A model generated the notes under the pieces. That model made no database searches. It was not told the origin of the DNA and saw only the letters and a program-made list of their open reading frames with translations. From assembly GCA_001789205.1 (NCBI GenBank), contig MFYT01000078.1, positions 1-47,958 on the forward strand: a stretch of DNA of 47,958 nt, given 5' to 3'. The position numbers were made by a program, and so were the translations under genes. Positions 5,595 through 23,795 of this stretch are shown piece after piece. The stretch is from Candidatus Raymondbacteria bacterium RIFOXYA2_FULL_49_16 (lineage in GTDB: Bacteria; Fibrobacterota; OXYB2-FULL-49-7; XYB2-FULL-49-35). Each line of letters starts with the position of its first letter. Position 1 is the first letter of the stretch.

Positions 5595-7243
5595 TTAATC
5601 ACCGCGATCTTGAGTATCTTGCTTTCGCTGCCGCCGTCCCTGTACCTCACAATCACTTTGGCAAAATAGACACCATTGGCAGCGTTGGAAATATCCCAGG
5701 TAAACGCAGCCTTGGTGTTTCCCTGTACGCCCGACCTCCTGAAAACCTTTACCATTCGTTCGGCAGTATCGTAGATCAAGACCTCAATATCGCCTGGCTT
5801 TTGGATAAAATACTGTATTTTCGATACCCGTGAAGCAGGGTTTGGATAGCCGTACGTGCCATCCTGAAAATTCAGGGGTTGCGGTGTTCCCGTCAAATCA
5901 AAAGCGTATAAAGAACCATTCATGGTCGCCATATAAAGCCTGCCATTGGCAATGGCTGGAGAGGAAATAATATCACCATCAAGAGTGTCTGACCATAATT
6001 TCGCGCCTGTTTTTGCATCAAGACAATAAGCCATTCCCTCTCCCCATCCAAAAAAAACCTTGTTGTCCGCCACAACAGGCGACGAACAATATCCAAGCTT
6101 TTCGCTGTTTCTTAATTCAGCGTAATACCAATTCTCGTTCCCTGTTTCTTTATCCAGGGCAAAAATGGTAAACCGCGGCTTGGGGTATCCCAATTCCTTC
6201 TGTATCACATACACCAAGTTCGGACCCACTGCCACGGACGATGTTTTCATGTCGCCATAGGGATAAAAATCCCAGACACTTATACTGTCGGCCTTGGAAT
6301 CCGTTGATTTACCCAGTTGTCTGGTAAAGACTTTTGGGACTGATATTCCACGCTTTGCCAGACGATCTATTGCCGCTTGGCGATGAACAGGACTGAGGCG
6401 CAGAAGTTCAATAAATTGTTTCGGTGCTATTAATCCGGATGAACCTATAGTATCCGCCCTTCTTTTCGCAACAGGTATACCGTAACTTTTCCAGTGCAAC
6501 TGGCCGGTACCAGCGACCACGCGGTAAATATTCATGTCATAATTGCCCGGAGCGAAAAAAGCCGTACCATTGTCTATTGCCGGGCTTGAAAGATACGCGC
6601 CGCCGTTGGTCTGCAAAGTCCAGGCAATTCTCTTCCCAGAAAGACTAACCCCATACAGCAGTCCGCTATTGTCGGCAACAACAGACATACCCGATGAAAT
6701 GGCCGGGGAAGAATAGGAAATCTGTCTGAAAGGCAAAAACCATTTCGTCGCCGGGTTGCTCAGATCGTAAACGCCAAAACCATTGAACGGCGGACCTAAA
6801 CTTGCGAGAACCATGCTATCGTCAAGCACTGCCGGTGACGATAGCTGGAGACCCGCATTGAGCGTGGAAAGGCTGTCCCCGGTTGCCAGATCGAACACGT
6901 ATATTCTGCCGTCCCGGCTTCCTATAATGGCCTTTTTCTGAGACACCGTTGGAGAGCAATCGACCCAGCCTTGTGTTTTCCGTTTCCAGCGGAGTGTTCC
7001 ATCCCCTGTCTCCAACGCATACACACTGCTGTCACGCGCACCGATTATGAGCAGATTGTCAGCTACTGAAGGCGAAGAAACAGTAGTGTTTCCGAGCGAA
7101 TATACCCAAACAGGTTTGTCGCCGGGTATTCCCACTTTCTCGGTGCTGTACCCTGTCCGCTCCAGGTTGCCCCGGAAACAGGGCCAATCACTGGCATAAG
7201 CGACGACCGCGATAAACAAAACAATCAATAAAGTCTTTGCCAT
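5591..7243 (-). CDS. secreted PQQ-type beta-propeller protein with C-terminal Por/FlgD-like module
   Basis: A 550-residue secreted protein. A short signal peptide (about residues 1-18) is followed by DWPCFRGNLERTGYS, a common opening of PQQ-like propellers, and then by repeated blades of the type 'SSPSVADNLLIIGARDSSVYALETGDGTLRW'-like strands (only the short core YALETGDGTLRWK is quoted as evidence), repeated with YVFDLATGDS, FALDKETGNENW and YCLDAKTGAKLW. The last 85 residues (from NPASRVSKIQYFI to the end, with VYFAKVIVRY) form a FlgD/Por-secretion-type beta module that could act as sorting signal. No enzyme active site is seen, so it is more likely a binding or scaffold protein than a quinoprotein dehydrogenase. 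It lies 13 bases after the giant gene's stop and overlaps the barrel gene. Confidence 0.85.
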   Translation of the reverse strand: MAKTLLIVLFIAVVAYASDWPCFRGNLERTGYSTEKVGIPGDKPVWVYSLGNTTVSSPSVADNLLIIGARDSSVYALETGDGTLRWKRKTQGWVDCSPTVSQKKAIIGSRDGRIYVFDLATGDSLSTLNAGLQLSSPAVLDDSMVLASLGPPFNGFGVYDLSNPATKWFLPFRQISYSSPAISSGMSVVADNSGLLYGVSLSGKRIAWTLQTNGGAYLSSPAIDNGTAFFAPGNYDMNIYRVVAGTGQLHWKSYGIPVAKRRADTIGSSGLIAPKQFIELLRLSPVHRQAAIDRLAKRGISVPKVFTRQLGKSTDSKADSISVWDFYPYGDMKTSSVAVGPNLVYVIQKELGYPKPRFTIFALDKETGNENWYYAELRNSEKLGYCSSPVVADNKVFFGWGEGMAYCLDAKTGAKLWSDTLDGDIISSPAIANGRLYMATMNGSLYAFDLTGTPQPLNFQDGTYGYPNPASRVSKIQYFIQKPGDIEVLIYDTAERMVKVFRRSGVQGNTKAAFTWDISNAANGVYFAKVIVRYRDGGSESKILKIAVIK

Positions 7244-7256
7244 TTTATACCAATCG

Positions 7257-10200
7257 TTATTCTAATGTAAACGCGTCCAAATTCTGACTAGTGGTGCCGA
7301 AAATCACCAATGTATTTCCAACATCTATCCATGGCCCTGTGTTGCTGTTCCCGCTGGCGTTGGTATAGGGCCAATCTGTGATCAGGCTGGCGGAGGAACC
7401 GAGATCCTGTATCGCGTAATAACGGCCGTCGTACCTTCCGAAATAGACGACGCCGTTGTATTCAATAGGGCCGGATTCGACGTTGTTTCCAGCGCCATAG
7501 GTCCAGGTCACGCTTCCCGTGGCCCCGTTATCGGTCACTTTCTGGATACTGGTGCCCGCGGCGACATAAATATCCTGGCTGCCCGAGGCGCAAAAGGCCG
7601 GGCCCGTGCTCGCCGCGGCAAGGGACACAGGAGAGCCCCATTTGGCGGTCATGGTTGAAGCGTTGACCGCATACAGGTTGGCGCTGTTTGGGGTGACATA
7701 AAGCGCCGAACCCTGCACCAGCAGGGGCTGGAGCACCCCGGCCCCTGCGTTGAAGGAGGAGAGCGGCGTTCCGTCCTCGTCGTATTTCCAAACCATTCCG
7801 CCGGTTGTGGCCACATAGATCTCATCGTTGAACACCACCGGGTCCGCGGTCCTGCTCACATCGGCCAGGGCCTGCGGCCAGCCGGCGATGTTCGCGCCGG
7901 TGGTCATGCTTTTTTTTGTGATGTTGCCGGTATAAGCCACGTAAAAGGTAGCGTCGTCCGGGCTGGCATAGGGGTTGCCGGGAGAGGCCAGGGCCTGGGG
8001 AGGAAAAAGCTGCGTAGACGGGATGATACCCTCATCCTGCCGGCCGATTACGTAATTACCCGCTGAAGCCACAATTTTGTACTTGGAATTGGATCCGTAT
8101 ATATAAGTCGGCGTGCCGCAGGCTCCGTAGGCCGAGGCATCATAGATCCAATTGGTGCTGCCGGTCGCGGGGTTCAGGCCGATCAGTTCCTGCCCGCTTT
8201 TATCCGTGCCCACAAAGACCGGTCCCCCAATGGACCCGCCTTTAACCGTGCCGATGGAATTCCTGGACCAGACCGGCGCCAGGGAGGAGACACCCCAGTT
8301 GATACTTCCCGACGTCTCGATTTCCGAAGCGTCGCCACTCACCCATCCTGTTCCGGTTGTGTAATCGCTCATGGTAACGATGTCCCCGGGAACCGTGTTG
8401 ATTTCAACGCTTTTAGTGCCCGAACCCAGGTCCTGGAAGGCCAGGCCGGTGAAGAGATACCCGTTCCAGCCCGAATTCGTCACATGGAGATAACAGATGG
8501 CGGAGGATTGGCCTGAATAGAAATAGGTATTTGTGAAGGTGCGGCCTGTTCCGCCCGTGCCGGATAGGGTCAGGCCCGCGTTACTCAGGTTGTAAACCCG
8601 CGCGCAGTTGATTTCCACGTTTCCGGCAAGGGTCATGCCGTAATTACCCGATCCGGTGTTTTGCACCATTGCGTATCCACCAGCAAGCTGGCTTGTGCCG
8701 GAGACCTTGAAGGTACTCCCGACAGCGGCGGAAATGGCGCCGCCGGTGTAAAGAATCGTGTTGTTTTTCAGATCGAGTGTTCCGTTAAGTGTCAAGCCGG
8801 CGGTAAGGGTCAGGTTTTTGCCTGAGGCTACGATCAGGCCCGAACCGGCGTCCACGGTAAGGGCGCTGCTGACCGTGATAGTGGAATTCAAGGTATCTGT
8901 CCGGTTGTTGGTGATGGTCAGGTTATAGAAGGTCTTACCCTGGGCGTTGATTTGCCTGTCGCTTGCGCCGGTCATGGTCACCCGGCCCGTGCCGGCGATG
9001 AGCGTGCCCGTGGATTGAATGATGAAATCCCCGTAAACCGATAACGTGTTGGTTCCCAAAGAAAGCGTCCCATTGGTGATGGTGATTCGCCGGCAGGAAC
9101 CGCCTGCGCCAGGTATGGCTGGATCAAAGGTTTGGTCGGGGATTAGGATATCGTCCGTACTCGTAGGCTCGCCCACCGGGGACCAGTTGCCGGCTGTGGC
9201 CCAGTCCGTGGTCCCGGCGCCGCCGGTCCATATCTTGTCGTAGCTCCAGGTGATATTGCCGTCCACGGGGCCGTCCCAGGTTTCGCTGGTTGCGACCACC
9301 CCACGTGTGCCCAGGGCGTTCACCATGGTAATGGTCGCACCGTTGGGCGCGGTCACGTTCGGGTTCGCGGTCCCGTCAAAACTGCAGAAATAAAACAGAT
9401 AGGATCCGCTGGCCGCCCCGACGCTCAGGTATTTCGTCCCGTTGGAGAAATAGCAGTTGTCTATTTTCGTGATGGCCGCTCCGTTTGCGATATCAAGGCC
9501 ATTGGCACCGGGATAGTCGATGTTCAGTCCGTCCACGTTGATCGTTCCGCCGGAGGATACGGCCAGGGCGTAGTTCGCCGTGCCCTGGCGCGTGATGATG
9601 GGCCGTGGGGAGCCGGAGGAGAACAGCGTGCCGCCGCTCTGGACGGTAATCGAACCGGCCACGGCGCCGTTGCCCAGACGGAGCTGCGGCGCGCTGGAGG
9701 CAGTCTGGAGCTTGAGCGTGCCGCCGGAAGTGACGGTGACGGCGCCGCGAAGCGTGACCGTGGCGGTGTTCAAATCAAGGGTGCCGGAAATAGACGCAGT
9801 TCCGGTCACGTCATTGGCTGTGCCTGTGCCGCAATCAAGCGTTGAGCCGGTTGAAACGGTCAGATTGCCGTCCACATCCAGCTCATAGGCGCCCAGGGAA
9901 GCCGTGCCGCTGGTCGATACGGTGAGGTTGTAAAAATTGTTGATGGCCGCGGTGACAATCGCCGGAGAGGCGCCGTCCAGGGCGACGGTCCCCAGGGCGG
10001 GGGCGAAACTTCCGCCTGCGTCGTTCCAATCGCCCGCCACGGTATGGGTGAAATTGCCCGGCGCAAAGGTTCCGCTTGAAAGGATGAAGTTTCCGTTGAT
10101 GTCAAGGGCGCGGCTCGCTGTAAGGCTTACCCCTGCGTTCTTAGCAACTTCCACGTTTTGAAAAGAAGTTTGAGATGCGCCATTATCTATGGTCGCCGCA

Positions 10201-13200
10201 GTGGCTCCTGTAAATTTAACCGTGGAGCCAGAACCGGAAAAAAGGGCGCCATTGTTGGTCCATCCGCTTGTCTGCAAAGCTATGGTTTTGCCCGCAGCAT
10301 TCAATTCACCAGCTGTCAGCACAACGCCCCCTCCAATGACAGTCAGCGCCGGGCTGCCCGTTGCGTTTATCGTGGTCTGTCCGCTTTGGAGCGTAAACCG
10401 GTAAAAATTGGTTGAAGAGGAAGTTCCGGAGAGTATGCATGTCGCTCCCAGAAAGGTGAAGTTGCCGCCGGTATTGGCGGACATGGAACCATTGTTGGTG
10501 AATATCCCCGAAATATTGATGAGACTGGCGATGTTTACCCGGGTATTTCTAAACTCTCCATCGCTATTGATGGTAAGATTGGTCACTGCTAAGGTGTTGT
10601 TGTTTGTTTCCTGACGGAAAAGACCGCTGATTGTCAGTGCCTGCACGGTCACGTCTCCCGCGGCTCCGGACATGATATAGGTACCACCGGAATTGATGGT
10701 CATCGTAGCATTGGCAGCGGTGAAATCACCGGCGCCGGAATGCGTATAAGTACCGCCTAAAATAACGGATGTTCCGTCAATATTGACCGCCGCGGTAGTG
10801 TGGGTCACAGCGCCGTTGAAAATAGCATTGCCGTCTATCTGCAAGGTATAGGTTGTACCATTATTAAGATTCAGGGTGGCGCCGCCCACAAGCATCAGAG
10901 TACTGATTCGGTTAGCGCCAGTTGCATTCATGTTCAGTTGAGGCTGGTTGGGCATGCCTGACAGAATCACCACGCTGTCGGTACTTACAGGAACTCCCAC
11001 AGGCGTCCAGTTATTAACATTGTTCCAAGCAGTGCTTGCCGATCCATCCCATCGCTTTCCATAAACCCAGGTTATGTTGCCGTCGATAGTCCCGTCGTTT
11101 GCCTCGCCATTGGGTTCAGCGCCCCTTGCGCCTGCGGCGTTATTCATCACAATCGTCGCGCCGTTTGGCGCGGTAACATTGGGGTTTGCGGTACCGTCAA
11201 AATCGCAAAAATAGAATACATACGAACCGCTGTTCGCCCCAACACTCAGGTATTTGGTGCCCAGGGAAAACGCACAATTGTCTATTTTGGTTATGGTGGC
11301 GCCATTTGCGATGGCAAGGCCGTTAGCGTTAAGATAGCTTAATGTCAGACCATCCACGCTGATCGTTGCTCCGCTTGCAATGGTCAGACCATAATTCGCC
11401 GTTCCCTGGCGGGTGATGAACGGCTTTGGATAACCAGAGGCGGTCAAAGTCCCGCCGCTATTCACAGTGATAGAACCGGCGACAGCGCCATTTCCCAGTT
11501 GAACTGTAGGCGCGCCAGTCGTGGTAGCCAATTTAAGCGTACCACCGGAATTGACAGTGACAGCGCCGCGCATAATGGTAGTGCCTGCGCCCATATCAAG
11601 TGTCCCGGAGATACTGGCCGTTCCTGTGACATCATTAGCAGTACTTGATCCGCAATTGAGCGTTGCTCCTGCGGAAACGGTCAACACACCGTTCACGTCA
11701 AGTTCACTGGCACCCATAGAGGCTGTGCCGCTCGTGGAAACCGTAAGGTTATAGAAATAATTGCTCGCCAAAGTGGTAATGGATGGCGAAACGCCCTCCA
11801 GAACAATGGTACCCGCGGCTGGAACAAAACCGCCTCCAGCATCACTCCAGTTTCCGGCCACGTTATGCGTGAAGTTGCCAGGAACAAAGTTGCCAGTGGC
11901 AATGGTAACATTGCCGTCAATATTCAACGCCTGGCTTGCGGTGAGGTTTTGACCCGCGGTCTTGGCGATTGTCACGTTCTGAAAGGTCGTTTGAGTAGTG
12001 CCGTTGTCGATGTTCACCCCGTTTCCCAGGGTGAACTGGACGGTGGAACCCGCCCCGGTGAGCGTGGCGCCGTTGTTGGTCCAGCTTCCGCCCGCGACAT
12101 CCATCCGTTGGCCCGCGGCGTCCAGGACTCCAGCGGTCAGTACTGCGCCGCCGGCCAGTGCCGTGAAGGCCGGGGCGCCGGTGCCGTTCAGGGTGGTCTG
12201 CCCGCTCTGCAGCGTGAAACGATAGAAACGGGTGGTGGTGGAGCTTCCTTCAATGACGCTTGCGGCCCCGGAAAAGGTGAAATTTCCGCCCGTGGAATTG
12301 GACATGGTGCCATTGTTGGTGAAATCCCCTGAAATATTGACAAGACTGGCGGTGGTGACACGGGTGTTCCTGAATTCACCGCCGTTGTTGATGGTGATGT
12401 CGGTTGCGGTTAGTGTGTTGTCATTGGTCTGTTGCAGGAAAAGGCCGTTGACGACCAGCCCTTGCACAGTGACGTTCCCGGCTGCACCGGACATGGTATA
12501 GGTCACCCCCTGGTTCACGGTCATGGTGGCATTGGCCGCGTTGAAGTCCCCGGCACCCGTGTGGTTGTAAGCGCCGCCGATGGTGACCCCGGTTCCCAGG
12601 ATGTTGACCGTGGCCGTGGTATGGGTTACGGTACCGCTGACGCTGAAACTTCCGTCGATTTGCAGGGTATAAGCCGTGCCGTTATTGAGATTGAGTACCC
12701 CGCCCGCAGCGATGGTAAGGCTTGCGATGCTGTTGGCGCCCGCGGCGTTCATGTCCAGAACAGGGTCGTAAGTCACGTCAGGGATGACCACCTCGTCCCC
12801 GGTAACGGGTATGCCGGATGGCGACCAGTTGGCCGCATACGCCCATCGTCTCCTATTGGCGGCCCCTCCGGAACCGCCGACCCATGTCTTGCCTGTGGCG
12901 GTTGTGGCCTGCGGCAGGTAAGGGTAAGAGACCAGATCACTGAGGTAGTTTCCAGAGCCGTCCACCAGAACCAGCTTGAAATAATAAACCGCTCCCTTGG
13001 ACACATTGGTCCAGACGGGCGTAAGGGAAAAGTCCCATTCCGCGTACTGGGTTGAAGGAACCGATAAGATACCGGCTGAGGGGACGTTTTCCGCGAAGTG
13101 CTCCCTGATGTTGGAATTGGTCAGGCGCGTAAAACCCACTTGGTCGCCGTTTCCGCCCATGCCGTCCGCATAGCTCCAGTGCGCCGAGGTCCCCAGGTCA

Positions 13201-14114
13201 GTCCACGTACCCGTAGTCCCTTCACGGTACCGCAATGCCACATAAGCGCCCACCCAGGCGTAGGACATGTCGTTTTGCGCCTGGAGGCGAAGGCGCAGGG
13301 TGGTTCCGTTGGCGACATTGGTAATGGCCGTATTCTCCGCGGCCAGGGCCGTGGGGTTTTCGGCGTTGTCGTTCTGGTACCAACGGTATCTGGACTGGTT
13401 CTGGCCGCGTACAACTTTTGCGTCGTCGACCCACAGCCCGGTGTTACCGTTTACATTGTCCCAACTGAAAGAGCCGCAGTCGAAGTCATTGAAGTTGGCG
13501 AATGAAGCGTTGGCCATGACGTAGATGGAAACCCCGTCCAGATAGAGCGTGGTGTTGACGTTGTCGCGGATCCACTCGACCTTGTGCCAGCCCAGGGTGC
13601 GGTCAATCGACGAGAAGGTAGTGGCGATGAGCTGGCTTGTATAACAATATTTGGTGGCGCTGGTCGCGTTTCTGATGACGATTCCCGCCCACTGGTTACC
13701 GGTGTTGTTGTCGGCGCAGATATATTGTCTTTTGGTGGCGGCCATATCGTCGTAGAACCAGATTTCAGCGCGGCCGTTGGTTATTGCGCCTGCGCCCCCA
13801 AAGCCAGGGGCGTTCCAGTCGCCTATGCCCTGGCCCGCGTTGCCGCCGGAGGAATACATGGATTTGGATCCGCCCTGCGTGTTGTTCTGGGTGTTGACGG
13901 TCGTGGCGTTGGCGGTGTACCATCCCCCTGCGCCCGCGATGGTCCAGCCATCACTGTTGGGCGGGGAATTTCCCAGGGTGGCGGACTCAAAATTGTCGGA
14001 GAAATGTATCTCTTCTTCTGCAAACACTGACACGGAAAAAAGAAGACTCCATAGGCACACCATACCCGTAAATTCCAGCAATAACGTAATTACAGTCCAA
14101 TTGCGAGCTGTCAC
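7257..14114 (-). CDS. giant secreted repeat protein (LamG-like N-terminus, beta-solenoid repeats, C-terminal propeller)
   Basis: A 2285-residue exported protein, start GTG at 14114 with an AGGGA ribosome site that overlaps the stop of the peptide gene upstream. Signal peptide to about A32. Residues 35-240 look like a LamG/concanavalin-type domain (EIHFSDNFES, WHKVEWIRD, LYLDGVSIY). Three long units follow, each opening with a W-A-x-NWSPxGxP element near residues 408, 1020 and 1625; the first two are about 605 residues each and clearly duplicated, rich in Gly, Thr, Asn and Ser with strand-turn repeats typical of a beta-helix. From about 1940 to the end a PQQ-like propeller (VWKYDEDG, NLYAVNAS). 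Almost no Cys or Lys in the solenoid. Probably a cell-surface or extracellular adhesin-type protein; no catalytic motif recognised. Base composition changes inside the gene (see findings). Confidence 0.85.
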   Translation of the reverse strand: MTARNWTVITLLLEFTGMVCLWSLLFSVSVFAEEEIHFSDNFESATLGNSPPNSDGWTIAGAGGWYTANATTVNTQNNTQGGSKSMYSSGGNAGQGIGDWNAPGFGGAGAITNGRAEIWFYDDMAATKRQYICADNNTGNQWAGIVIRNATSATKYCYTSQLIATTFSSIDRTLGWHKVEWIRDNVNTTLYLDGVSIYVMANASFANFNDFDCGSFSWDNVNGNTGLWVDDAKVVRGQNQSRYRWYQNDNAENPTALAAENTAITNVANGTTLRLRLQAQNDMSYAWVGAYVALRYREGTTGTWTDLGTSAHWSYADGMGGNGDQVGFTRLTNSNIREHFAENVPSAGILSVPSTQYAEWDFSLTPVWTNVSKGAVYYFKLVLVDGSGNYLSDLVSYPYLPQATTATGKTWVGGSGGAANRRRWAYAANWSPSGIPVTGDEVVIPDVTYDPVLDMNAAGANSIASLTIAAGGVLNLNNGTAYTLQIDGSFSVSGTVTHTTATVNILGTGVTIGGAYNHTGAGDFNAANATMTVNQGVTYTMSGAAGNVTVQGLVVNGLFLQQTNDNTLTATDITINNGGEFRNTRVTTASLVNISGDFTNNGTMSNSTGGNFTFSGAASVIEGSSTTTRFYRFTLQSGQTTLNGTGAPAFTALAGGAVLTAGVLDAAGQRMDVAGGSWTNNGATLTGAGSTVQFTLGNGVNIDNGTTQTTFQNVTIAKTAGQNLTASQALNIDGNVTIATGNFVPGNFTHNVAGNWSDAGGGFVPAAGTIVLEGVSPSITTLASNYFYNLTVSTSGTASMGASELDVNGVLTVSAGATLNCGSSTANDVTGTASISGTLDMGAGTTIMRGAVTVNSGGTLKLATTTGAPTVQLGNGAVAGSITVNSGGTLTASGYPKPFITRQGTANYGLTIASGATISVDGLTLSYLNANGLAIANGATITKIDNCAFSLGTKYLSVGANSGSYVFYFCDFDGTANPNVTAPNGATIVMNNAAGARGAEPNGEANDGTIDGNITWVYGKRWDGSASTAWNNVNNWTPVGVPVSTDSVVILSGMPNQPQLNMNATGANRISTLMLVGGATLNLNNGTTYTLQIDGNAIFNGAVTHTTAAVNIDGTSVILGGTYTHSGAGDFTAANATMTINSGGTYIMSGAAGDVTVQALTISGLFRQETNNNTLAVTNLTINSDGEFRNTRVNIASLINISGIFTNNGSMSANTGGNFTFLGATCILSGTSSSTNFYRFTLQSGQTTINATGSPALTVIGGGVVLTAGELNAAGKTIALQTSGWTNNGALFSGSGSTVKFTGATAATIDNGASQTSFQNVEVAKNAGVSLTASRALDINGNFILSSGTFAPGNFTHTVAGDWNDAGGSFAPALGTVALDGASPAIVTAAINNFYNLTVSTSGTASLGAYELDVDGNLTVSTGSTLDCGTGTANDVTGTASISGTLDLNTATVTLRGAVTVTSGGTLKLQTASSAPQLRLGNGAVAGSITVQSGGTLFSSGSPRPIITRQGTANYALAVSSGGTINVDGLNIDYPGANGLDIANGAAITKIDNCYFSNGTKYLSVGAASGSYLFYFCSFDGTANPNVTAPNGATITMVNALGTRGVVATSETWDGPVDGNITWSYDKIWTGGAGTTDWATAGNWSPVGEPTSTDDILIPDQTFDPAIPGAGGSCRRITITNGTLSLGTNTLSVYGDFIIQSTGTLIAGTGRVTMTGASDRQINAQGKTFYNLTITNNRTDTLNSTITVSSALTVDAGSGLIVASGKNLTLTAGLTLNGTLDLKNNTILYTGGAISAAVGSTFKVSGTSQLAGGYAMVQNTGSGNYGMTLAGNVEINCARVYNLSNAGLTLSGTGGTGRTFTNTYFYSGQSSAICYLHVTNSGWNGYLFTGLAFQDLGSGTKSVEINTVPGDIVTMSDYTTGTGWVSGDASEIETSGSINWGVSSLAPVWSRNSIGTVKGGSIGGPVFVGTDKSGQELIGLNPATGSTNWIYDASAYGACGTPTYIYGSNSKYKIVASAGNYVIGRQDEGIIPSTQLFPPQALASPGNPYASPDDATFYVAYTGNITKKSMTTGANIAGWPQALADVSRTADPVVFNDEIYVATTGGMVWKYDEDGTPLSSFNAGAGVLQPLLVQGSALYVTPNSANLYAVNASTMTAKWGSPVSLAAASTGPAFCASGSQDIYVAAGTSIQKVTDNGATGSVTWTYGAGNNVESGPIEYNGVVYFGRYDGRYYAIQDLGSSASLITDWPYTNASGNSNTGPWIDVGNTLVIFGTTSQNLDAFTLE
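9240..12900 (-). repeat. two diverged 1.8-kb coding repeats within the giant gene
   Basis: Two adjacent units, roughly 12900-11055 and 11055-9240, encode the same order of motifs: NWSPxGxP-type opening, LNLNNGTxYTLQIDG, GDFxAANATMT, EFRNTRV, FYRFTLQSGQTT, DVTGTASISGTLD and TANPNVTAPNGATI. The period is about 1.82 kb. A partial third unit begins near 9240. Nucleotide identity is moderate, so the duplication is old or has been remodelled. Confidence 0.8.
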
Positions 14115-14126
14115 ACTATTTTTTCC

Positions 14127-14291
14127 CTATGATGTTGATGGCAACTGCATGCACGCATGCTGCCTATGCGGACCGGTCCGGCATTTCCCGCACGATAATG
14201 CCCTGCGTTCGAAAACCGATTCCGATTCAATGGTCGGCGGTTCGTATTCCGCTCTCTTTTTATCAGCAGTTTCTTTCTGTTTCCCGTTCAT
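14127..14291 (-). CDS. candidate RiPP precursor peptide of the adjacent radical SAM enzyme
   Basis: A 54-residue peptide. Its ATG (14291-14289) overlaps the TGA stop of the radical SAM gene (ATGA), and its TAG stop lies 12 bases before the GTG of the giant secreted protein. I translated it codon by codon. The N-terminal part is charged and leader-like (MNGKQKETADKKRA), then an acidic stretch with EPPTIESE, then SVFERRALSCGKC and a basic tail with one more Cys. Cysteines are at 34, 37 and 47. Small peptides with an ALxCGK-like motif next to SPASM enzymes are, from memory and unchecked, a recurring pattern. The three Cys would suit thioether crosslinks, but the modification is unknown. No Gly-Gly leader cleavage site or dedicated protease/ABC transporter is seen. 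The gene is too short for standard length cut-offs and would easily be missed. Confidence 0.72.
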   Translation of the reverse strand: MNGKQKETADKKRAEYEPPTIESESVFERRALSCGKCRTGPHRQHACMQLPSTS

Positions 14292-15307
14292 ACAACTCCC
14301 ATGCTTTTTTGTTCCAGCGCTTTTGCCCTTTTACACAAACTCGGTGATGCGTCCTGCCAGAGGCCTGTTTCAACAAACGAAAGCCCGGGACACCGTGAAC
14401 AAAACCTTTTGGTTGAACATTGCGTACACTCTTGTCCCACGTTTTTTTCATCCATACGATATTGATGCGCTGCTTGGCTGTTCCAGATAGAATATATCGG
14501 CATTTCTCCAACATTTCCCCATAATAGAGGTAATTGGATGCAGGGATATACATCGCCGTAAGGGGTAATGCCGCCAAGGTTCCTGCCCGCATCGCAGTGC
14601 AGATTATCATCTGCATCGGTTTTAGGACCAGCCACTGCTCCCCCAATGCCCATATCATCAAAAAATTGCTGGTACTGCTCAATTTCTACCGAGAACATTG
14701 AAACAGCGAGGTGTTTACCGGAAAAAATAACCGCGTCACATTCAAAAAATGCGTTTTCTTTCTCTGCCATTTTTGACAATGCTCTATATTGGCCAAAGTT
14801 CTTGTTCGACACTGTATGTTTCATGATAACAGGTACATTGTTTTCCTGCAGCAGTTTCATGCCTCTATAGGCTGCTGCAAAGCTGCCAGCGGAACCTGTG
14901 AGCATATCATGAATAACCGGATCTGCAGCATGAAAACTGACTCCCACATCGACCACGGAAAGTTCTGAAAGACGTTTTGCCTTGTCAGCGTCGATAAGAG
15001 TGCCATTTGTGATAAGACTTACGGCAAAAGAAAATTTTCTTGCTCCCTCAATTATTTCAAAAATATCACTGCGTGCAAAAGGTTCGCCTCCGGAAATAGT
15101 GAGAAAGAGACATCCCATATCAGCAAGGTGTGCAAAAACTTGTTGCCATTGACTGGCGGTTAGCTCTGATCTGCCTGCATCTGGACAATTATAACAATAA
15201 TAACATCTAAGATTACATGCGTAGGTCACTTCAGCAAAAAAATTCAGAGGAATATTTTTGCACGCAGCGGATTTATTGAGCTCATAAGGGATTGATGTGT
15301 TTTCCAT
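14288..15307 (-). CDS. radical SAM/SPASM peptide maturase
   Basis: A 339-residue cytoplasmic enzyme. The radical SAM [4Fe-4S] motif CNLRCYYC is at residues 31-38, preceded by the usual AEVTYA strand and followed by TISGGEPFARSD (SAM-binding GGEP). The C-terminal SPASM region has CDAG, PYGDVYPCIQLPLLWGN and the cluster CTQCSTKRFCSRCPG, ending with a further Cys (SLCKRAK), giving ligands for auxiliary Fe-S clusters. SPASM enzymes mostly modify ribosomal peptides (sactipeptide, ranthipeptide, mycofactocin types); some are anaerobic sulfatase activators, but no sulfatase is nearby. No N-terminal peptide-binding RRE domain is obvious. I chose the ATG at 15307 over a TTG at 15319. It overlaps the small peptide gene and heads the run down to 4617. 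Confidence 0.9.
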   Translation of the reverse strand: MENTSIPYELNKSAACKNIPLNFFAEVTYACNLRCYYCYNCPDAGRSELTASQWQQVFAHLADMGCLFLTISGGEPFARSDIFEIIEGARKFSFAVSLITNGTLIDADKAKRLSELSVVDVGVSFHAADPVIHDMLTGSAGSFAAAYRGMKLLQENNVPVIMKHTVSNKNFGQYRALSKMAEKENAFFECDAVIFSGKHLAVSMFSVEIEQYQQFFDDMGIGGAVAGPKTDADDNLHCDAGRNLGGITPYGDVYPCIQLPLLWGNVGEMPIYSIWNSQAAHQYRMDEKNVGQECTQCSTKRFCSRCPGLSFVETGLWQDASPSLCKRAKALEQKSMGVV

Positions 15308-15339
15308 TGTTTTTTCCAAAAGCCTACATATATAATTTA

Positions 15340-15359
15340 ATATAAAAACGTTTTATATA
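15340..15359 (-). promoter_or_regulatory. AT-rich palindrome upstream of the radical SAM gene
   Basis: A near-perfect dyad centred on AAAACGTTTT, with ATAT arms on both sides, lies about 35-55 bp before the start codon. On the minus strand TTGTAT and TAAATT, 17 bases apart, overlap it. It would fit a repressor-controlled promoter, but AT-rich sequence makes chance matches likely. Confidence 0.3.
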
Positions 15360-15388
15360 CAATATAAAAAAGGCATGGGAAATCGCAC

Positions 15389-15688
15389 GGAATTGGGCAT
15401 TGCAATTCGTACGTGCGTCATTCATCAATAAAGGCCTGCCACGCAATTGGGCATTGCCACCCTATCTATTACCCACATCTTTTTCGGCGGCGCGGCGCCG
15501 CCGGCTAATCAGTTATTTCCGTTTTTTAATGGGCCAGACGGACGGCCCATTAGGCGAGGCCGTCTGGCCTCGCTATAAATAGGCCTAAAATACATTGATT
15601 AGGCGGCGCCCTCCGCGGTGCCGCACTTATGGGTAATAGATAGCATTGCCACCTGTACGGGCGTCATTCATCAATAAAGGCCTGCCAC
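15389..15688. repeat. tandem repeat of about 54 bp, second copy interrupted
   Basis: Unit 1 (about 15389-15442) and unit 2 share an exact 28-base stretch at 15415-15442 and 15661-15688. The preceding part (AATTGGGCATTGC) is also repeated, at 15391 and again at 15445. Unit 2 is split by the 180-bp element at 15463-15642. Removing that element and one copy of its flanking duplication restores two adjacent units. Only two units are present, without a constant spacer pattern, so this is not a CRISPR. Confidence 0.75.
15463..15642. mobile_element. MITE-like palindromic element
   Basis: A 180-bp element without coding capacity. Terminal inverted repeats TATCTATTACCCA (15463-15475) and TGGGTAATAGATA (15630-15642) are perfect over 13 bases, and the arms continue to pair imperfectly through GC-rich sequence and TAATCA/TGATTA. 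An 11-base direct repeat, GCATTGCCACC, lies on each side (15451-15461 and 15643-15653), as expected for a target-site duplication with one extra base on the left. The centre holds two perfect hairpins (15527-15552 and 15554-15573). No transposase is in the window, so it would be mobilised in trans, if at all. Confidence 0.65.
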
Positions 15689-15723
15689 AGAAGAATGACG
15701 CCCCCCACCCCCTGGGGCAATGC
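15643..15723. repeat. long imperfect hairpin
   Basis: GCATTGCC (15643-15650) pairs with GGCAATGC (15716-15723), and inside it GGGCGTCATTC (15659-15669) pairs with GAATGACGCCC (15693-15703). The left arm is the second tandem-repeat unit. The remainder of the gap up to 15966 is AT-rich; it has two near-identical pieces (ACCTGGTAAAAGCTTC and ACCTGGCAAAATCTTC near 15770-15810) and presumably the promoter of the export operon, but no convincing gene. Confidence 0.5.
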
Positions 15724-15966
15724 CCTCATGAAATTGAAAAACAACACTTTGCATGCTAATACCATCAAATACCTGGTAAAAGCTTCAAAACACCTGGCAA
15801 AATCTTCCTATGTCTGCAAAATGGAACAAATTGTTAACAAAACCTTAAAAAACTTCTTTAAATATCGTTATAACTTTCGATTTTTCAAAAAGATATCAAG
15901 TGCCAACCAATTATTTCCGATATACTTCAAATGGAGGACAACCTGTAATAAACAGATATTAACAAC

Positions 15967-16176
15967 ATGAAACAGATAAACCTTAATTCACTGAAGCTCT
16001 ACAACCTGGTCGAAATATCAAAGGCCACGGGAATTAGCCTTAGCACGCTGCGCAATGCTATAAAAACAAACGAGTTGCGGGCACGAAAACTAGGGCGCGA
16101 ATACAAATGCACCATGACGGAGATTCTCAGATTCATACAAGTAACCGATGCCGAGATACCGGAGGTGGCACAATGA
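15967..16176 (+). CDS. small excisionase/MerR-type helix-turn-helix protein
   Basis: A 69-residue putative DNA-binding protein. The sequence YNLVEISKATGISLSTLRNAI followed by LRARKLGREYKC matches the HTH_17/excisionase type: a helix-turn-helix and a short wing that reads a primer-like K/R-rich edge. Such proteins act as excisionases of mobile elements or as small transcription factors. It is the first gene of an operon; its TGA stop overlaps the ATG of the Wza-like gene (ATGA), and an ideal GGAGG for the next gene lies within its 3' end. That coupling makes a regulatory role for the polysaccharide genes more likely than excision, although the repeat-rich sequence just upstream keeps the second option open. 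Conserved wing residues were not checked by alignment. Confidence 0.72.
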   Translation: MKQINLNSLKLYNLVEISKATGISLSTLRNAIKTNELRARKLGREYKCTMTEILRFIQVTDAEIPEVAQ

Positions 16177-16898
16177 AGCGCCTCATTTTCCCTGCCTTTC
16201 TCTTTCTGCTACTGGCATGCGGCTGCATGCCCAAGGGAATTCAGTACAACCATCCTGATTTTGAAACAATCACAAAAAAAACCGCCTTTGATAAAACCTA
16301 TATTATAGGCATGGACGATGTCCTAAACGTGATTATCTATGAAAAATGGCCCTATGCTCGCGACGCGTACGAAAAAAAAGTGGTTGTCCGCGATGAAGGC
16401 ACCATTATAGTCCTGCCTATTGGCAAACTGAAGATTGAGGGCCTTACTATCAAAGAAGCTGAGGAAGAAATTATAAACGGCCTCAAGACCTATCTGAAGA
16501 AGCCCTTTTGTGAGATTGAGATTATTGAATACAACAGCAAAAAGGTCTGCGTTCTGGGAAACCTGGAACGGGCCGTGGTGTTTGGCTTGAAGCCAGGCCA
16601 GCGCCTTGTAGAGACCGTGGCCCTTGCTGGCGGCAATGCTGAGAAAAGGTATCTTGGCCCGGTCAAACTGGTGCGCAAGGAAAAAGGCGAAGTACGGGTG
16701 TTTGACATTAACATGCGCCGCATTGTAATCGATGGCCGCCTTGATGAGGACGTGCTCCTTGCCGACGGTGACATCCTCTTTGTTCAGGAAAGCAAACTTA
16801 CTGAAGCCAAGCGGATCATTGACCTGCTGACCTTGTGGGTTCCCGCGTACTTTGCGGGCCGCACTCTGACCAGCGACATTGGCATAACGGGGAATTAG
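16173..16898 (+). CDS. Wza-like polysaccharide export outer membrane lipoprotein
   Basis: A 241-residue exported lipoprotein. Signal sequence with lipobox near LLLAC (residues 13-17; a second Cys two residues later could also be the acylated one). A polysaccharide-export domain begins at about residue 42 (TYIIGMDDVLNVIIYEKW) and is followed by a SLBB-type domain (KVCVLGNLERAVVFGLKPG, LVETVALAGG). In capsule and exopolysaccharide systems this protein forms the outer membrane channel and docks on a Wzc-type protein, which is the next gene six bases downstream. The start at 16173 has GGAGG upstream and overlaps the HTH gene stop. It is shorter than E. coli Wza (379), close to the compact Wza/GumB-type proteins. 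Confidence 0.88.
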   Translation: MKRLIFPAFLFLLLACGCMPKGIQYNHPDFETITKKTAFDKTYIIGMDDVLNVIIYEKWPYARDAYEKKVVVRDEGTIIVLPIGKLKIEGLTIKEAEEEIINGLKTYLKKPFCEIEIIEYNSKKVCVLGNLERAVVFGLKPGQRLVETVALAGGNAEKRYLGPVKLVRKEKGEVRVFDINMRRIVIDGRLDEDVLLADGDILFVQESKLTEAKRIIDLLTLWVPAYFAGRTLTSDIGITGN

Positions 16899-16904
16899 AA
16901 TACT

Positions 16905-19900
16905 ATGCATAAGTTTGAAATGTCTATAATGGAATATGAATATATCCTGAAAAAGCGATATAAGATCATTCTATTGTGCATTATCCTGGTCATGGGGTCG
17001 AGCCTCTTCTTCATGCGCTCGCAGACGCAGCTGTACAAGGCCTTTTCGAGCGTAAAGATCGACAAGAGCAAAAAGCAGGAAGACATGCTGGTCACGGACA
17101 GCTACTGGGACAACATGGAAACGCAGGTATTGGTGGTCAACAGTTTCCCGGTCATCGAACTTGTGGCAAAAGACTTGGGCCTGGTGGACAGCACAATCCC
17201 TTCGGAAGTCATCAAGCAGAACGAGAAACTGATCAGAACCATAACAGGCCTCAGTTCAAAGGTGTCGGCCAAAGTCCGCGGCAGTTCAACTATCATCGAC
17301 ATCACTGTTGTATCAGCGAACCCGACAGAGGCGAAAAACATCGCCAATTCAGTGGCCAACTGCTACAAACGCTTCACACGCCAGGAAAAAAGCAAGGCGA
17401 TCCGCGATACCCGCGTGTTCATAGAACAGCAGTTGAACGCCTGCAAGGCCAGTCTTGCGAAAAACGAAGGGGAGCTCAAAGACCTGATGCGGGAAAGCCA
17501 GTTCCCTTCCCTCGACGAGAAGATACGGCGTACTATTGAACAGCAGTCTGACCTCATGAAGGACAACAAAGAGCTGAGCGGAAAGATAGAGGCCATATTG
17601 AGCCAGACCCAGGACCTGCAGAAGCGCAAAGAATGGTCCTCGTTCAACATCAACGAAAAGAATAAGCCTGATCAACAGCGGCCCTACATGGACTGGATTT
17701 CAGGTATTGGAGAGACTGATCCCGGTCTTGAACAGATGAACCGGAAGCTCCTTGAGCTCGAACTCCAAAAGAGCGAACTACTCAATTTCTACAACCCGAC
17801 CCATCCGAAGCTGCATGATATCGAGACTGAAATATTCAATATAATCAGCCAGATACTGCGTGAGTATACGAACCGGGTGAATTTCTACCAGAAAAAATAC
17901 GCAGCCAATACGGAAACCATTACCAAGCTCCAGGAGACCTTCAAGGAAATCCCTGAGGAGCAACGCCAGTTTTCCAGCATCCAGCGCAACATATCGACCA
18001 ATACGAAACTGTATGAACTGCTCTCAACCCGGTACCAGCTCGCGCTCATCAGCGAAGCGGGCAGCGCTGACGAAGTAGTGGTCCTCTCCTATGCGGTAAC
18101 GCCCAATAGCCCCTTCAACGTGAATTCCAGCAAAGTGCTCATCATAAGCCTGGTGCTGGGCATCATGCTCGGGGTCATCATCGCCCTGGTGCTTGAGACC
18201 TTTGATACCTCCATTGGCACCATCGAGGACATGGAGGAATATCTCCAGGTCCCGGTCATTGGCGTGCTGCCGCATATTGACAAAGACGGCGTCCTCGACA
18301 TTATAAAGACCCGCATGGGCGAATACGCGGTGGCGAACGATCTTCCGGCAAGCCACCTGATCTCCCACTTTGACCCCAAGTCGCCCGACGCGGAAGCGTA
18401 CCGCAGCCTGCGCACAAACATCCAGTTCCTCGATATTGACAAGAAGATCAAGGTCATTAATTTTACGAGCTCAGTCATGCGCGAGGGCAAAAGCACCACG
18501 CTCGCCAACTTGGCGCTCACCATTGCCCAAGCCGGATACAAAATCCTGGTCATTGGCTGCAATCTGCGGCGGCCTTCGCTCTACAAGACCTTTGGTTTTT
18601 CCATGGGACCGGGTGTTGTCGACATCCTGATTGAAAAGGAAAAATGGCAGAACTGCATTAAGACGCTCGCTGATTCTGAAATTGAAGCGCTGCGCAATTA
18701 CGACCAGTTCGGTTACTCAAACCTGAGCAACCTGCACTTTATAGAATGCGGCGCCATTCCGCCCAACCCATCGGAACTGCTCCAGTCGCGCAACATGGAC
18801 AAATTCCTCGCAGAGGTGCGTGAACACTATAATATAGTCCTGATCGACTCTCCGCCAACGCTACCGGTCACGGATTCGGCCATCCTTGGCACCAAGGTAG
18901 ACGGTACGGTGATTGTATATCAGGCGGGCCGCGTGCCCCGGAATGCCCTGCGTCGCGCCAAGATGAAGCTGGAAAGCGTGAAAACAAAGGTGCTTGGCCT
19001 GGTGCTCAACGACACCAAGTCTGAAATGAGTGGTTATTTCAGCGGCTACTACAAATATTATATGGACGACAAAGGATCGCGCAAGCGTAAAAAGAAACAT
19101 CGCAGCGCAACAGCCCATTCCCTGCTCTTTTCGCTCGCAACAGGTACTGGAGCATCAGTGGCTGTCGAGGCGATCAGGAAATATTCCCTTATCGGCATCC
19201 TGGCCGCGGCAATTCTGGGTCTTGGCGCGTTCAAGGCAATTTCAACCAGCCGCTCTGACAGCGAACGCAACAAGGCAAAAGCGCGGGAACTATTACCGAT
19301 GAAAAAGAGTCCGGTTGTTCCAACGCCTCCTGTGGCAAAACCCGCGCCAAAAGCGGCAAAACCCGCTGAGCCAATAAAGGCGCTAACTCAGGCGCCCGTA
19401 CCAGTAACCCCAACCCCTGCGCCAGTACTGGTCGCGGTAAAAGTACCGGAAAAGCGGGAAACCCCTGTGGCTGTCAAACCGCAAACCGCGCCCGCACCCG
19501 CGGTCAAAATCACCGTGCCAGCGCCAATTGCGGCAAAGACATTGGTAAAAAAAGAAGCTCCTGTTGCCGCCAAACCGCAGCCCATGGCCGCGCCCGCGGT
19601 CCAAGCCCCTGCGCTGTCAATTGACGAGGAATTTTTCTTTCTCCAGCTCTCCTCCCTGCCCACCATTGAATTGGCGCAAAAGGAACGCGAACGGCTGCGC
19701 AAACAGTATGGCATTGACGTTTACATACGGCCCCTTGTGCGCGACGGCAAAATAACCGCGTGCAGGGTCTGCTTTGGCGCTTACAGAACGCGCCACGAGG
19801 CCCAGGCCGCTCTCGAAAGTTTCCCCATTAAACGGGGCGCCAAGAACGCATTTGTAAACCAGGGGCTTGCCGCGTCCAAGGAACTTGCCCAGCTCCTGAT

Positions 19901-19910
19901 GCAGTACTGA
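16905..19910 (+). CDS. Wzz/BY-kinase fusion (Wzc-like) with C-terminal SPOR domain
   Basis: A 1001-residue inner membrane protein. Order: N-terminal helix (about 19-36), Wzz chain-length domain with long coiled coils (40-400), second helix (about 410-430), bacterial tyrosine kinase (440-705), Tyr cluster YFSGYYKYY (about 707-716), a third hydrophobic segment (about 758-780), a Pro/Ala/Lys-rich linker (795-905) and a SPOR-like domain (FFFLQLSSLPTIE to the end). Known role: Wzc-type proteins control polymer length and export with Wza. Walker A is present (MREGKSTT, near 525) and Walker B (IVLIDSPP), but Walker A' reads VIGCNLRRP instead of a DxD-type motif, so both usual Asp are missing. SPOR domains bind denuded peptidoglycan, an unusual fusion here. 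No glycosyltransferase genes follow. Confidence 0.87.
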   Translation: MHKFEMSIMEYEYILKKRYKIILLCIILVMGSSLFFMRSQTQLYKAFSSVKIDKSKKQEDMLVTDSYWDNMETQVLVVNSFPVIELVAKDLGLVDSTIPSEVIKQNEKLIRTITGLSSKVSAKVRGSSTIIDITVVSANPTEAKNIANSVANCYKRFTRQEKSKAIRDTRVFIEQQLNACKASLAKNEGELKDLMRESQFPSLDEKIRRTIEQQSDLMKDNKELSGKIEAILSQTQDLQKRKEWSSFNINEKNKPDQQRPYMDWISGIGETDPGLEQMNRKLLELELQKSELLNFYNPTHPKLHDIETEIFNIISQILREYTNRVNFYQKKYAANTETITKLQETFKEIPEEQRQFSSIQRNISTNTKLYELLSTRYQLALISEAGSADEVVVLSYAVTPNSPFNVNSSKVLIISLVLGIMLGVIIALVLETFDTSIGTIEDMEEYLQVPVIGVLPHIDKDGVLDIIKTRMGEYAVANDLPASHLISHFDPKSPDAEAYRSLRTNIQFLDIDKKIKVINFTSSVMREGKSTTLANLALTIAQAGYKILVIGCNLRRPSLYKTFGFSMGPGVVDILIEKEKWQNCIKTLADSEIEALRNYDQFGYSNLSNLHFIECGAIPPNPSELLQSRNMDKFLAEVREHYNIVLIDSPPTLPVTDSAILGTKVDGTVIVYQAGRVPRNALRRAKMKLESVKTKVLGLVLNDTKSEMSGYFSGYYKYYMDDKGSRKRKKKHRSATAHSLLFSLATGTGASVAVEAIRKYSLIGILAAAILGLGAFKAISTSRSDSERNKAKARELLPMKKSPVVPTPPVAKPAPKAAKPAEPIKALTQAPVPVTPTPAPVLVAVKVPEKRETPVAVKPQTAPAPAVKITVPAPIAAKTLVKKEAPVAAKPQPMAAPAVQAPALSIDEEFFFLQLSSLPTIELAQKERERLRKQYGIDVYIRPLVRDGKITACRVCFGAYRTRHEAQAALESFPIKRGAKNAFVNQGLAASKELAQLLMQY

Positions 19911-20033: not shown

Positions 20034-20447
20034 ATCTACCTTGAGATGGTCTCCCTTTTTCGAGGGTCACTTCGCAGAATACCGAACCAAAGGCTATTCT
20101 GCATTGAAAGTAATCAGGGTAAACAGAGCAAATTATATCGCAAGTAATGGTGTCAGCGATTTTTTGTGCGAAGTGACCGGTAAATTCAGCTTTCAATCTG
20201 AAGGCAAAGGCGATTTTCCCACAGCAGGCGACTGGGTCATTGCGTCAGAGATATTGAACGCTGGGAAAGCTATCTAAAACTAAAAAAGGAATTCGCATAT
20301 ATAGCCGATCGCCAGACCATGAGTGAGATTGTCGTTGACCCGGTCCTGGACCCCATTTCAAGCTTTAACAATACAACCGTGACCACATGGAAAAACAACA
20401 AAAAGAAAACAATAGACCTGAGGACAATCTTGAAAAAGGGTAAATAG
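20034..20447 (+). pseudogene. collapsed copy of the rsgA/WG-repeat gene pair
   Basis: Three pieces match the intact pair at 23796-25534 in the same order. 20036-20255 matches the RsgA N-terminus (about residues 6-70, with NRANYIASNGVSDF and GDFPTAGDWV). About 20258-20320 matches the RsgA C-terminus (WESYLKLKKEFAYIADRQT). 20322-20447 matches the C-terminus of the WG protein (DPVLDPISSF, TWKNNKKKTI), ending at TAG. The GTPase core and most of the WG gene are missing. The first junction shifts the frame, so the N-terminal reading stops at 20277; the second joins rsgA and WG ends in one frame. The start codon region is also altered (CTTGAGATGG). It is a duplicate reduced by two internal deletions. 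Confidence 0.88.
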
Positions 20448-22555: not shown

Positions 22556-23740
22556 ATGAAAATCACGAACAATGTCAGCTGGGTCGGCAAAATTGATTGG
22601 GAATTAAGAAAATTTCACGGGAATGAATATTCAACACACAAAGGGTCCACGTATAATTCATACCTTATCAAAGAAGAGAAAAATGTCATTATCGACACTG
22701 TCTGGAAACCATTTGCCAAGGAATATGTTGAAAAGCTGAAGAAAGAAATAGATTTGCAGAAAATTGATTACGTGGTTGCCAATCACGCCGAAATAGACCA
22801 TAGCGGCGCCCTTCCTGAATTAATGCACCATATTCCTGACGTACCCATTTATTGCACGAAAAATGCAGTCACCTCTTTAAAAGGCCATTACCATAAAGAT
22901 TGGAATTTTGTCCCTGTAAAGACCGGTGATACAATTGATGTTGGCAATGGAAAGTCATTGGTTTTTGTTGAGATGACAATGCTGCACTGGCCCGACAGCA
23001 TGGCCTCGTATTTGACTGGAGACAACATCTTATTCAGCAACGATGCGTTTGGACAGCATTATGCAAGCGAATATATGTTTAACGATCTTGTTGACCAAAA
23101 CGAGCTGTTCCATGAATGCATTAAATATTATGCCAACATTCTGACTCCTTTTAGTCCCTTTGTCACAAAGAAGATACATGAAGTCCTGGAAATGAAAATT
23201 CCGATTAATATCATAGCCACCAGCCATGGGGTAATCTGGAGAGACAATCCTGTTCAGATAGTTGAAAAATACCTGGCCTGGGCAAATAAGTATCAGGAAA
23301 ATCAAATCACCATTCTTTACGACACAATGTGGGATGGTACCAGAATAATGGCGGAAAATATTGCCGTGGGAATTAAGAAGGCCGATGATAAAGTCAATAT
23401 TAAATTGTTTAATGTTTCAAAAACCGACAAGAATGATATTATAAGTGAAATATTTAAATCTAAAACCGTATTACTGGGCTCCCCTACTATAAATAAGGGT
23501 ATTTCAGTTGCAATAGCGGGCCTATTGGAAGAGATTGAGGGATTACAGTTCAAAAATAAAAAGGCTGTTGCTTTTGGAAGCTATGGCTGGAGTGGTGAAT
23601 CAATTATAAAAATCACCAATGCACTTGAAAAGTCCGGATTTGCTATGATAAATAAAGGATTTAAATGCCTGTGGAATCCAGACGATGACAGCATCCAACA
23701 GTGCATCTCATTAGGTGTTGAGGTTGCAAAGAGTCAGTAA
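22556..23740 (+). CDS. flavodiiron protein (A-type flavoprotein, FprA family)
   Basis: A 394-residue cytoplasmic enzyme that reduces O2 to water and/or NO to N2O in anaerobes. The N-terminal metallo-beta-lactamase-like domain keeps all diiron ligands: H77, E79, D81, H82 (NHAEIDHSG), H144 (LHWPDSM), D163 (SNDAFGQHY) and H224 (ATSHGVIW). A flavodoxin domain follows from about 252 (ITILYDTMWDGT, FMN phosphate loop; VLLGSPT; AFGSYGWSGE). No rubredoxin domain is fused, so an external rubredoxin or similar donor is needed; none is seen here. A GGAG ribosome site precedes the ATG. The gene is markedly AT-rich (hand counts of 37% and 20% GC in two 60-base lines) against about 50% around it, suggesting recent acquisition. 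Confidence 0.95.
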   Translation: MKITNNVSWVGKIDWELRKFHGNEYSTHKGSTYNSYLIKEEKNVIIDTVWKPFAKEYVEKLKKEIDLQKIDYVVANHAEIDHSGALPELMHHIPDVPIYCTKNAVTSLKGHYHKDWNFVPVKTGDTIDVGNGKSLVFVEMTMLHWPDSMASYLTGDNILFSNDAFGQHYASEYMFNDLVDQNELFHECIKYYANILTPFSPFVTKKIHEVLEMKIPINIIATSHGVIWRDNPVQIVEKYLAWANKYQENQITILYDTMWDGTRIMAENIAVGIKKADDKVNIKLFNVSKTDKNDIISEIFKSKTVLLGSPTINKGISVAIAGLLEEIEGLQFKNKKAVAFGSYGWSGESIIKITNALEKSGFAMINKGFKCLWNPDDDSIQQCISLGVEVAKSQ

Positions 23741-23795
23741 TTCCCGTCCAAGGCAATTTCTAACAAAATGCGGCACTCACTTTAAAAATAACAAG

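Follow-up and report, generated by a model that had tools for sequence, protein, structure and literature searches.

A conserved short gene beside a radical SAM/SPASM gene in Fibrobacterota: candidate precursor of a RiPP family associated with secreted beta-propeller surface proteins

Introduction

Does a 54-codon frame that overlaps a radical SAM/SPASM gene encode the substrate of that enzyme and, if so, what would the product be for? We addressed this question in contig MFYT01000078.1 of Candidatus Raymondbacteria bacterium RIFOXYA2_FULL_49_16, analyzed over its whole stretch of 47,958 nt (hereafter, the window). A first-pass annotation had proposed that the frame and the enzyme are a peptide precursor and its maturase. 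Most SPASM-modified peptides that have been studied are antibiotics, signals or free cofactors. We propose that the frame encodes the precursor of a RiPP family not described before, and that its product serves a secreted propeller surface assembly, a reading to which we assign a probability of roughly 0.6.

Results

The short frame is a conserved gene

The frame encodes MNGKQKETADKKRAEYEPPTIESESVFERRALSCGKCRTGPHRQHACMQLPSTS (Table 1), in which a variable, Lys-rich N-terminus is followed by the leader motif YEPPTIESESVFERRALS and by the core CGKCRTGPHRQHACMQLPSTS, with cysteines at positions 34, 37 and 47 and a terminal Ser. Its ATG shares an ATGA overlap with the TGA of the SPASM gene, and a GGGAG resembling a ribosome-binding (SD) sequence lies immediately 5′ of the ATG. 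The frame, the overlap and the three Cys positions had all been reported in the first-pass annotation and were confirmed. The peptide matched no Pfam or NCBIfam family in profile searches of both libraries. Since chance ORFs of 40–60 aa are numerous in the window, we discarded length as coding evidence, and we consider the frame to be a gene because its orthologues are conserved. Reading AL[AS]C as a lipoprotein motif was also dropped, as no hydrophobic stretch precedes it.

Table 1. Positions of features in the window and the basis of each assignment
Feature	Position	Strand	Basis
PorV/PorQ-family outer-membrane protein (T9SS shuttle type)	4617..5594	-	NF033709
550-aa beta-propeller of BamB/PQQ type; T9SS type A sorting domain at the C-terminus	5591..7243	-	Pfam, NCBIfam, AF2 model
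2285-aa secreted repeat protein; G8-like segment, PQQ-type beta-propeller at the C-terminus	7257..14114	-	Pfam
Precursor peptide gene (candidate), 54 aa	14127..14291	-	Frame list, orthologues, dN/dS
Radical SAM/SPASM enzyme	14288..15319 (probable start ATG 15307)	-	Pfam, orthologues, alignment
Spacer between divergent operons	15320..15960		
46-nt direct repeat in spacer (89%)	15397..15442 / 15643..15688		
Perfect 14-nt inverted repeat in spacer	15462..15475 / 15630..15643		
Exopolysaccharide export genes (Wza-type Poly_export/SLBB, Wzc-type kinase)	16107..19910	+, divergent	Pfam (Wza-type), sequence (Wzc-type)
78-aa frame, truncated duplicate of RsgA-like N-terminal part	20041..20277	+	Alignment over 78 residues
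RsgA-like GTPase gene	23715..24866	+	

When a 39-residue query was run, six further genomes of the phylum yielded orthologues, with E-values of 4e-19 to 8e-12 that were clearly separated from the next matches (2e-3) and identities of 63–77% over the 39 residues. According to a scan of the named contigs, the genomes carrying them are Fibrobacterota MAGs, mostly Chitinivibrionales. Weaker matches in one large genus (g3; E 0.004–0.05) were classed as noise, as the two that we opened (L040 and L043) were unrelated genes, and the same was found for L059 and L060 outside that genus; no match to the peptide was obtained in viral contigs. When the window peptide was paired with each orthologue by the Nei-Gojobori method, dN/dS was approximately 0.1 or less for five of them and below 0.18 for the sixth and most distant, with synonymous sites near saturation and nonsynonymous change of 16–34%. 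These values are far below the ratio near 1 that would have spoken against selection on the frame.

The most conserved segment of the peptide is its tail, CGKCR(T/S)GPxxQxACMRLPSxS, while the first 15 residues vary in the alignment, which is the reverse of the variable tail that had been expected. Across the five genomes having both the peptide and the radical SAM gene, mean pairwise identity was highest for the peptide (79%), against 46% for the SPASM enzyme, 44% for the propeller and, where this could be compared, 34% for the PorV-like protein; no other part of the operon is as well conserved. These sequence comparisons establish the 54-codon frame as a genuine gene under purifying selection.

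The overlapping gene encodes a SPASM enzyme scoring below the cut-offs of the equivalogs listed

As annotated at first pass, the overlapping gene encodes a radical SAM/SPASM enzyme (Pfam Radical_SAM, 1.1e-21; SPASM, 7.5e-11), in which the CxxxCxxC motif and the SPASM cysteines are kept in alignment. Its nearest PDB relatives are SkfB and PqqE. The enzyme scored far under the cut-off of every NCBIfam equivalog among the matches listed, whether for sactipeptide enzymes (SkfB, 75 against a cut-off of 300; AlbA, 72.8 against 850; StsB, 101.9 against 625), for PqqE (128.7 against 381.35) or for enzymes of other cassettes (ScmE of SynChlorMet, 120.3; GeoRSP, 91.3; ACGX, 61.6; all against 400).

The peptide is carried by all five of the phylum genomes in which an orthologous radical SAM gene was found, and we saw no relative that keeps the enzyme without it. 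In the other two of the seven peptide-bearing genomes (G029 and G131, both incomplete assemblies), no orthologous radical SAM gene was detected, as might be expected if the peptide were a small protein that stays unmodified, such as a metal-binding CxxC peptide or a regulator, and the SPASM enzyme had another substrate. We consider this highly improbable, as PqqD and SPASM enzymes lie alongside the peptide in several phyla and the leader bears a motif reported for lasso leaders (PMC10368454). The pairing of precursor and maturase appears well supported by the orthologues, by purifying selection and by the recurrence of neighborhoods containing PqqD, a radical SAM enzyme and the peptide. A contig scan using a single radical SAM sequence as query gave no match; the peptide alignment succeeded as query.

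The peptide gene lies in an operon for secreted surface proteins

Five minus-strand genes, encoding in order the SPASM enzyme, the peptide, the 2285-aa secreted protein (hereafter, the giant), the propeller and the PorV-family protein, run from 15319 to 4617, with each pair of neighbors overlapping or spaced by 13 nt at the most. The giant gene begins 12 bp past the peptide stop, and the start of the PorV-family gene overlaps the propeller stop. The sorting domain of the propeller (Por_Secre_tail) was above cut-off in both libraries (TIGR04183, 29.8 against 23; PF18962, 28.3 against 27), and the AF2 model (pLDDT 79) predicts a BamB-like fold with a C-terminal beta-domain, the best PDB match being BamB. 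We considered a PorZ-like attachment protein and rejected it, because the fold disagrees and PorZ was not among the 50 PDB matches listed. The PorV-family protein scored 97.7 bits with NF033709 (cut-off 90) and did not reach the PorV and PorQ equivalogs. A T9SS is present: of the 168 phylum genomes, 160 have SprA above cut-off, and the source genome is one of them.

The divergent exopolysaccharide genes are part of the neighborhood and do not necessarily belong to the peptide system; such genes also occur close to the cassette in genome G007. Direct and inverted repeats occur in the spacer between the two divergent operons, and further along the window an RsgA-like GTPase gene lies 3.5 kb downstream of a truncated duplicate of its own N-terminal part.

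Peptide and propeller co-occur, and a second cassette exists in the same genome

Across the 168 phylum genomes searched, the propeller (E ≤ 1e-30) and the peptide were found in the same seven genomes and in no others. The probability of such a match by chance is 1/C(168,7) = 1.5e-12, a figure that overstates the association because one operon has been inherited in common, and the match is partly a reflection of that inheritance. In relatives within the phylum, the peptide adjoins giant, propeller or PorV-like genes, with counterparts of the giant downstream of it in most, and PqqD is located 5′ of the SPASM enzyme wherever the two share a contig. Genomes G007 and G055 have four and three propeller matches, respectively, and one detected peptide each. 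Two contigs of G007 (C16 and C10; L093 and L094) carry further pairs of propeller and giant genes with no recognizable peptide close by, and several propellers may share a single peptide.

At the window locus we found no PqqD, kinase, peptidase or exporter, which agrees with the earlier remark that no protease or exporter is adjacent. A paralogous cassette elsewhere in the genome, on contig C55, does carry a peptidase; it comprises an HprK-like gene, PqqD, a SPASM enzyme 35% identical to that of the window, an S26-like peptidase, a diverged peptide beginning MKYLKPAVESDLIYETQALGCAQC, a giant and two propellers. The propellers are of PQQ and BNR type, both with T9SS-type tails, that of the PQQ-type protein being under the Pfam cut-off. 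The peptidase (L069, 6637–7089) has GYCMSP where relatives have GxSMxP, so that Cys replaces the usual Ser nucleophile. Another contig, C88, has a second PqqD with NTP_transf_5 and an HprK-like gene among polysaccharide genes. Taken together, the contents of C55 and C88 indicate that the genome owns parts that are missing from the window locus.

The precursor belongs to a wider family

Profiles built from the peptide matched relatives in Planctomycetota (L076), a deltaproteobacterium (L077) and several further lineages. The alignment has the leader consensus YxxPx[IV]..E..FE..AL[AGS]C followed by a Cys core; shared traits are YxxPx[IV], an acidic stretch with FE, AL[AGS]C and a second Cys. Ser is the last residue in 30 of the 35 family peptides. 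Recurrent neighbors are PqqD, a SPASM enzyme, a kinase with the HPr kinase fold, NTP_transf_5 and an S26-like peptidase nearest to an archaeal signal peptidase model. For the modeled HprK-like protein (pLDDT 83), PDB matches at E ≤ 1e-3 were nearly all PEPCK and HPr kinase/phosphatase. We found neither a Pfam or NCBIfam family nor an open-licence paper describing the precursor family.

A large PQQ-type or FG-GAP propeller protein occurs near most family loci, and was absent near L076, G286, G254 and all three G413 loci. At some loci the giant is embedded among the RiPP genes, with the order PqqD, giant, peptide in L077 and L127, and radical SAM or PqqD, then giant, then peptide in L126 and L156–L158. 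One genome (G270; L119–L125) has about ten precursor copies, which share a conserved core peculiar to that genome; three of the copies lie in tandem on C6. We had taken propeller adjacency in G270 as strong support and downgraded it to weak evidence after counting 177 PQQ_2 domain matches in 3 Mb, because propellers are so abundant there.

PQQ, which is made from PqqA, occupies quinoprotein propellers, and maturation of the peptide might likewise yield a small cofactor, of redox or metal type, housed in the propeller. Such a role would fit a core that is near-invariant while the enzyme diverges, the exactly matching phyletic distributions of peptide and propeller, the presence of one peptide for several propellers in G007 and G055 (one cofactor, many users) and the position of PqqE, which together with SkfB is structurally solved and closest to the enzyme. 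We nevertheless regard it as unlikely, since the propeller as modeled is closest to BamB and not to quinoprotein dehydrogenases among the PDB matches listed, cores diverge greatly between phyla, and FG-GAP propellers are among the partners.

Alternatively, a SkfB-like SPASM enzyme and a Cys-bearing core could indicate a bacteriocin or signal of the sactipeptide or ranthipeptide type, which the surface operon adjoins by chance. This is distinctly improbable in view of the extreme purifying selection on the core across families and of the surface-protein genes that recur beside the peptide in most relatives and on C55; moreover, neither an exporter nor an immunity gene was recognized.

Discussion

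The family fits the general description of a RiPP system, a short conserved precursor adjoining a modifying enzyme, and its closest likeness in leader and tail is to phosphorylated or phosphoglycosylated lasso peptides (paeninodin, pseudomycoidin and the bsf peptide of Bradymonadales). These share the YxxPx(L/I/V) motif, a PqqD-like leader binder, a C-terminal Ser, an HPr-kinase-like kinase and a nucleotidyltransferase; in our family, PqqD is encoded in relatives and elsewhere in the source genome, and the kinase on C55 and C88 but not in the window. Lasso leaders carry YxxPxL, and the characterized bsf cluster includes a kinase and a nucleotidyltransferase (PMC10368454). That cluster is bordered by an FG-GAP protein judged uninvolved by its authors, and a link to propellers may reach lasso peptides too (PMC10368454). 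Lasso clusters encode a transglutaminase-like B2 protease and an asparagine-synthetase-like cyclase, neither of which was present among the neighboring ORFs that were scanned; our family instead has a SPASM radical SAM enzyme. It also differs in its Cys core, its S26-like peptidase and the lack of a recognized ABC exporter.

Sactipeptides and ranthipeptides of the SkfB type are alike in having core Cys and a SPASM enzyme with auxiliary-cluster cysteines. Our family differs in its discrete PqqD, where they have a fused leader-binding domain, in matching no NCBIfam precursor, in its surface-protein operon and in that the thioethers or other crosslinks suggested for it at first pass are putative. 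PQQ biosynthesis shares PqqD, a PqqE-like SPASM enzyme and a PQQ-type propeller partner, but has another precursor; here the propeller is BamB-like and the PqqE score is under the cut-off. SynChlorMet and GeoRSP likewise combine a PqqD-family chaperone with SPASM enzymes, and the products of these and of ACGX are uncharacterized, as here, whereas the equivalog scores of our enzyme are far under their cut-offs. Finally, the propeller sorting domain, the PorV/PorQ-family protein in the operon and SprA in the genome are those of T9SS type A cargo with its shuttle; the difference is that a radical SAM peptide cassette sits inside the operon. We found no report in the open-licence literature of such a cassette within a T9SS cargo operon, nor of an HPr kinase with radical SAM RiPPs matching the family. 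Each kind of component is known; their combination and the partnership with surface propellers are undescribed in the family libraries and open papers searched.

We propose the following pathway. PqqD, encoded elsewhere in the genome, would hold the YxxPx[IV] leader while the SPASM enzyme modifies the Cys core, a step that we consider very probable. There is about an even chance that this modification would be a thioether at C34 and/or C47. The -3,-1 rule governs signal peptidase cleavage sites, and AL[AGS] followed by Cys conforms to it; an S26/S24-like peptidase could cut before that Cys to leave a core with an N-terminal Cys, a step that we suggest tentatively. By analogy with lasso peptides, the HPr-kinase-like enzyme could plausibly phosphorylate the terminal Ser, given the prevalence of that residue and the PEPCK/HPr kinase-like fold, and NTP_transf_5 might then add a sugar. 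Operon spacing, the seven-genome match, the C55 layout and the giants embedded among RiPP genes lead us to favor, by a little, a mature product that binds to the secreted beta-propeller surface assembly, as one of its parts or as a ligand, rather than acting as an antibiotic.

More speculatively, and in our judgment with somewhat less than even odds, the loci could represent a cross-phylum RiPP class in which a radical-SAM-modified, C-terminally phosphorylated or phosphoglycosylated peptide serves secreted beta-propeller surface proteins as their dedicated component or cofactor, with a lasso-like leader and tail and a SPASM enzyme replacing the lasso cyclase. If the proposal is true, the family alignment would supply a precursor motif overlooked by existing family models, the modules would gain a testable logic of leader, Cys core and terminal Ser, orphan groups of PqqD, HprK-like, S26 and NTP_transf_5 genes in Fibrobacterota, Planctomycetota and other lineages would be accounted for, and RiPP chemistry would be part of surface-protein assembly or function.
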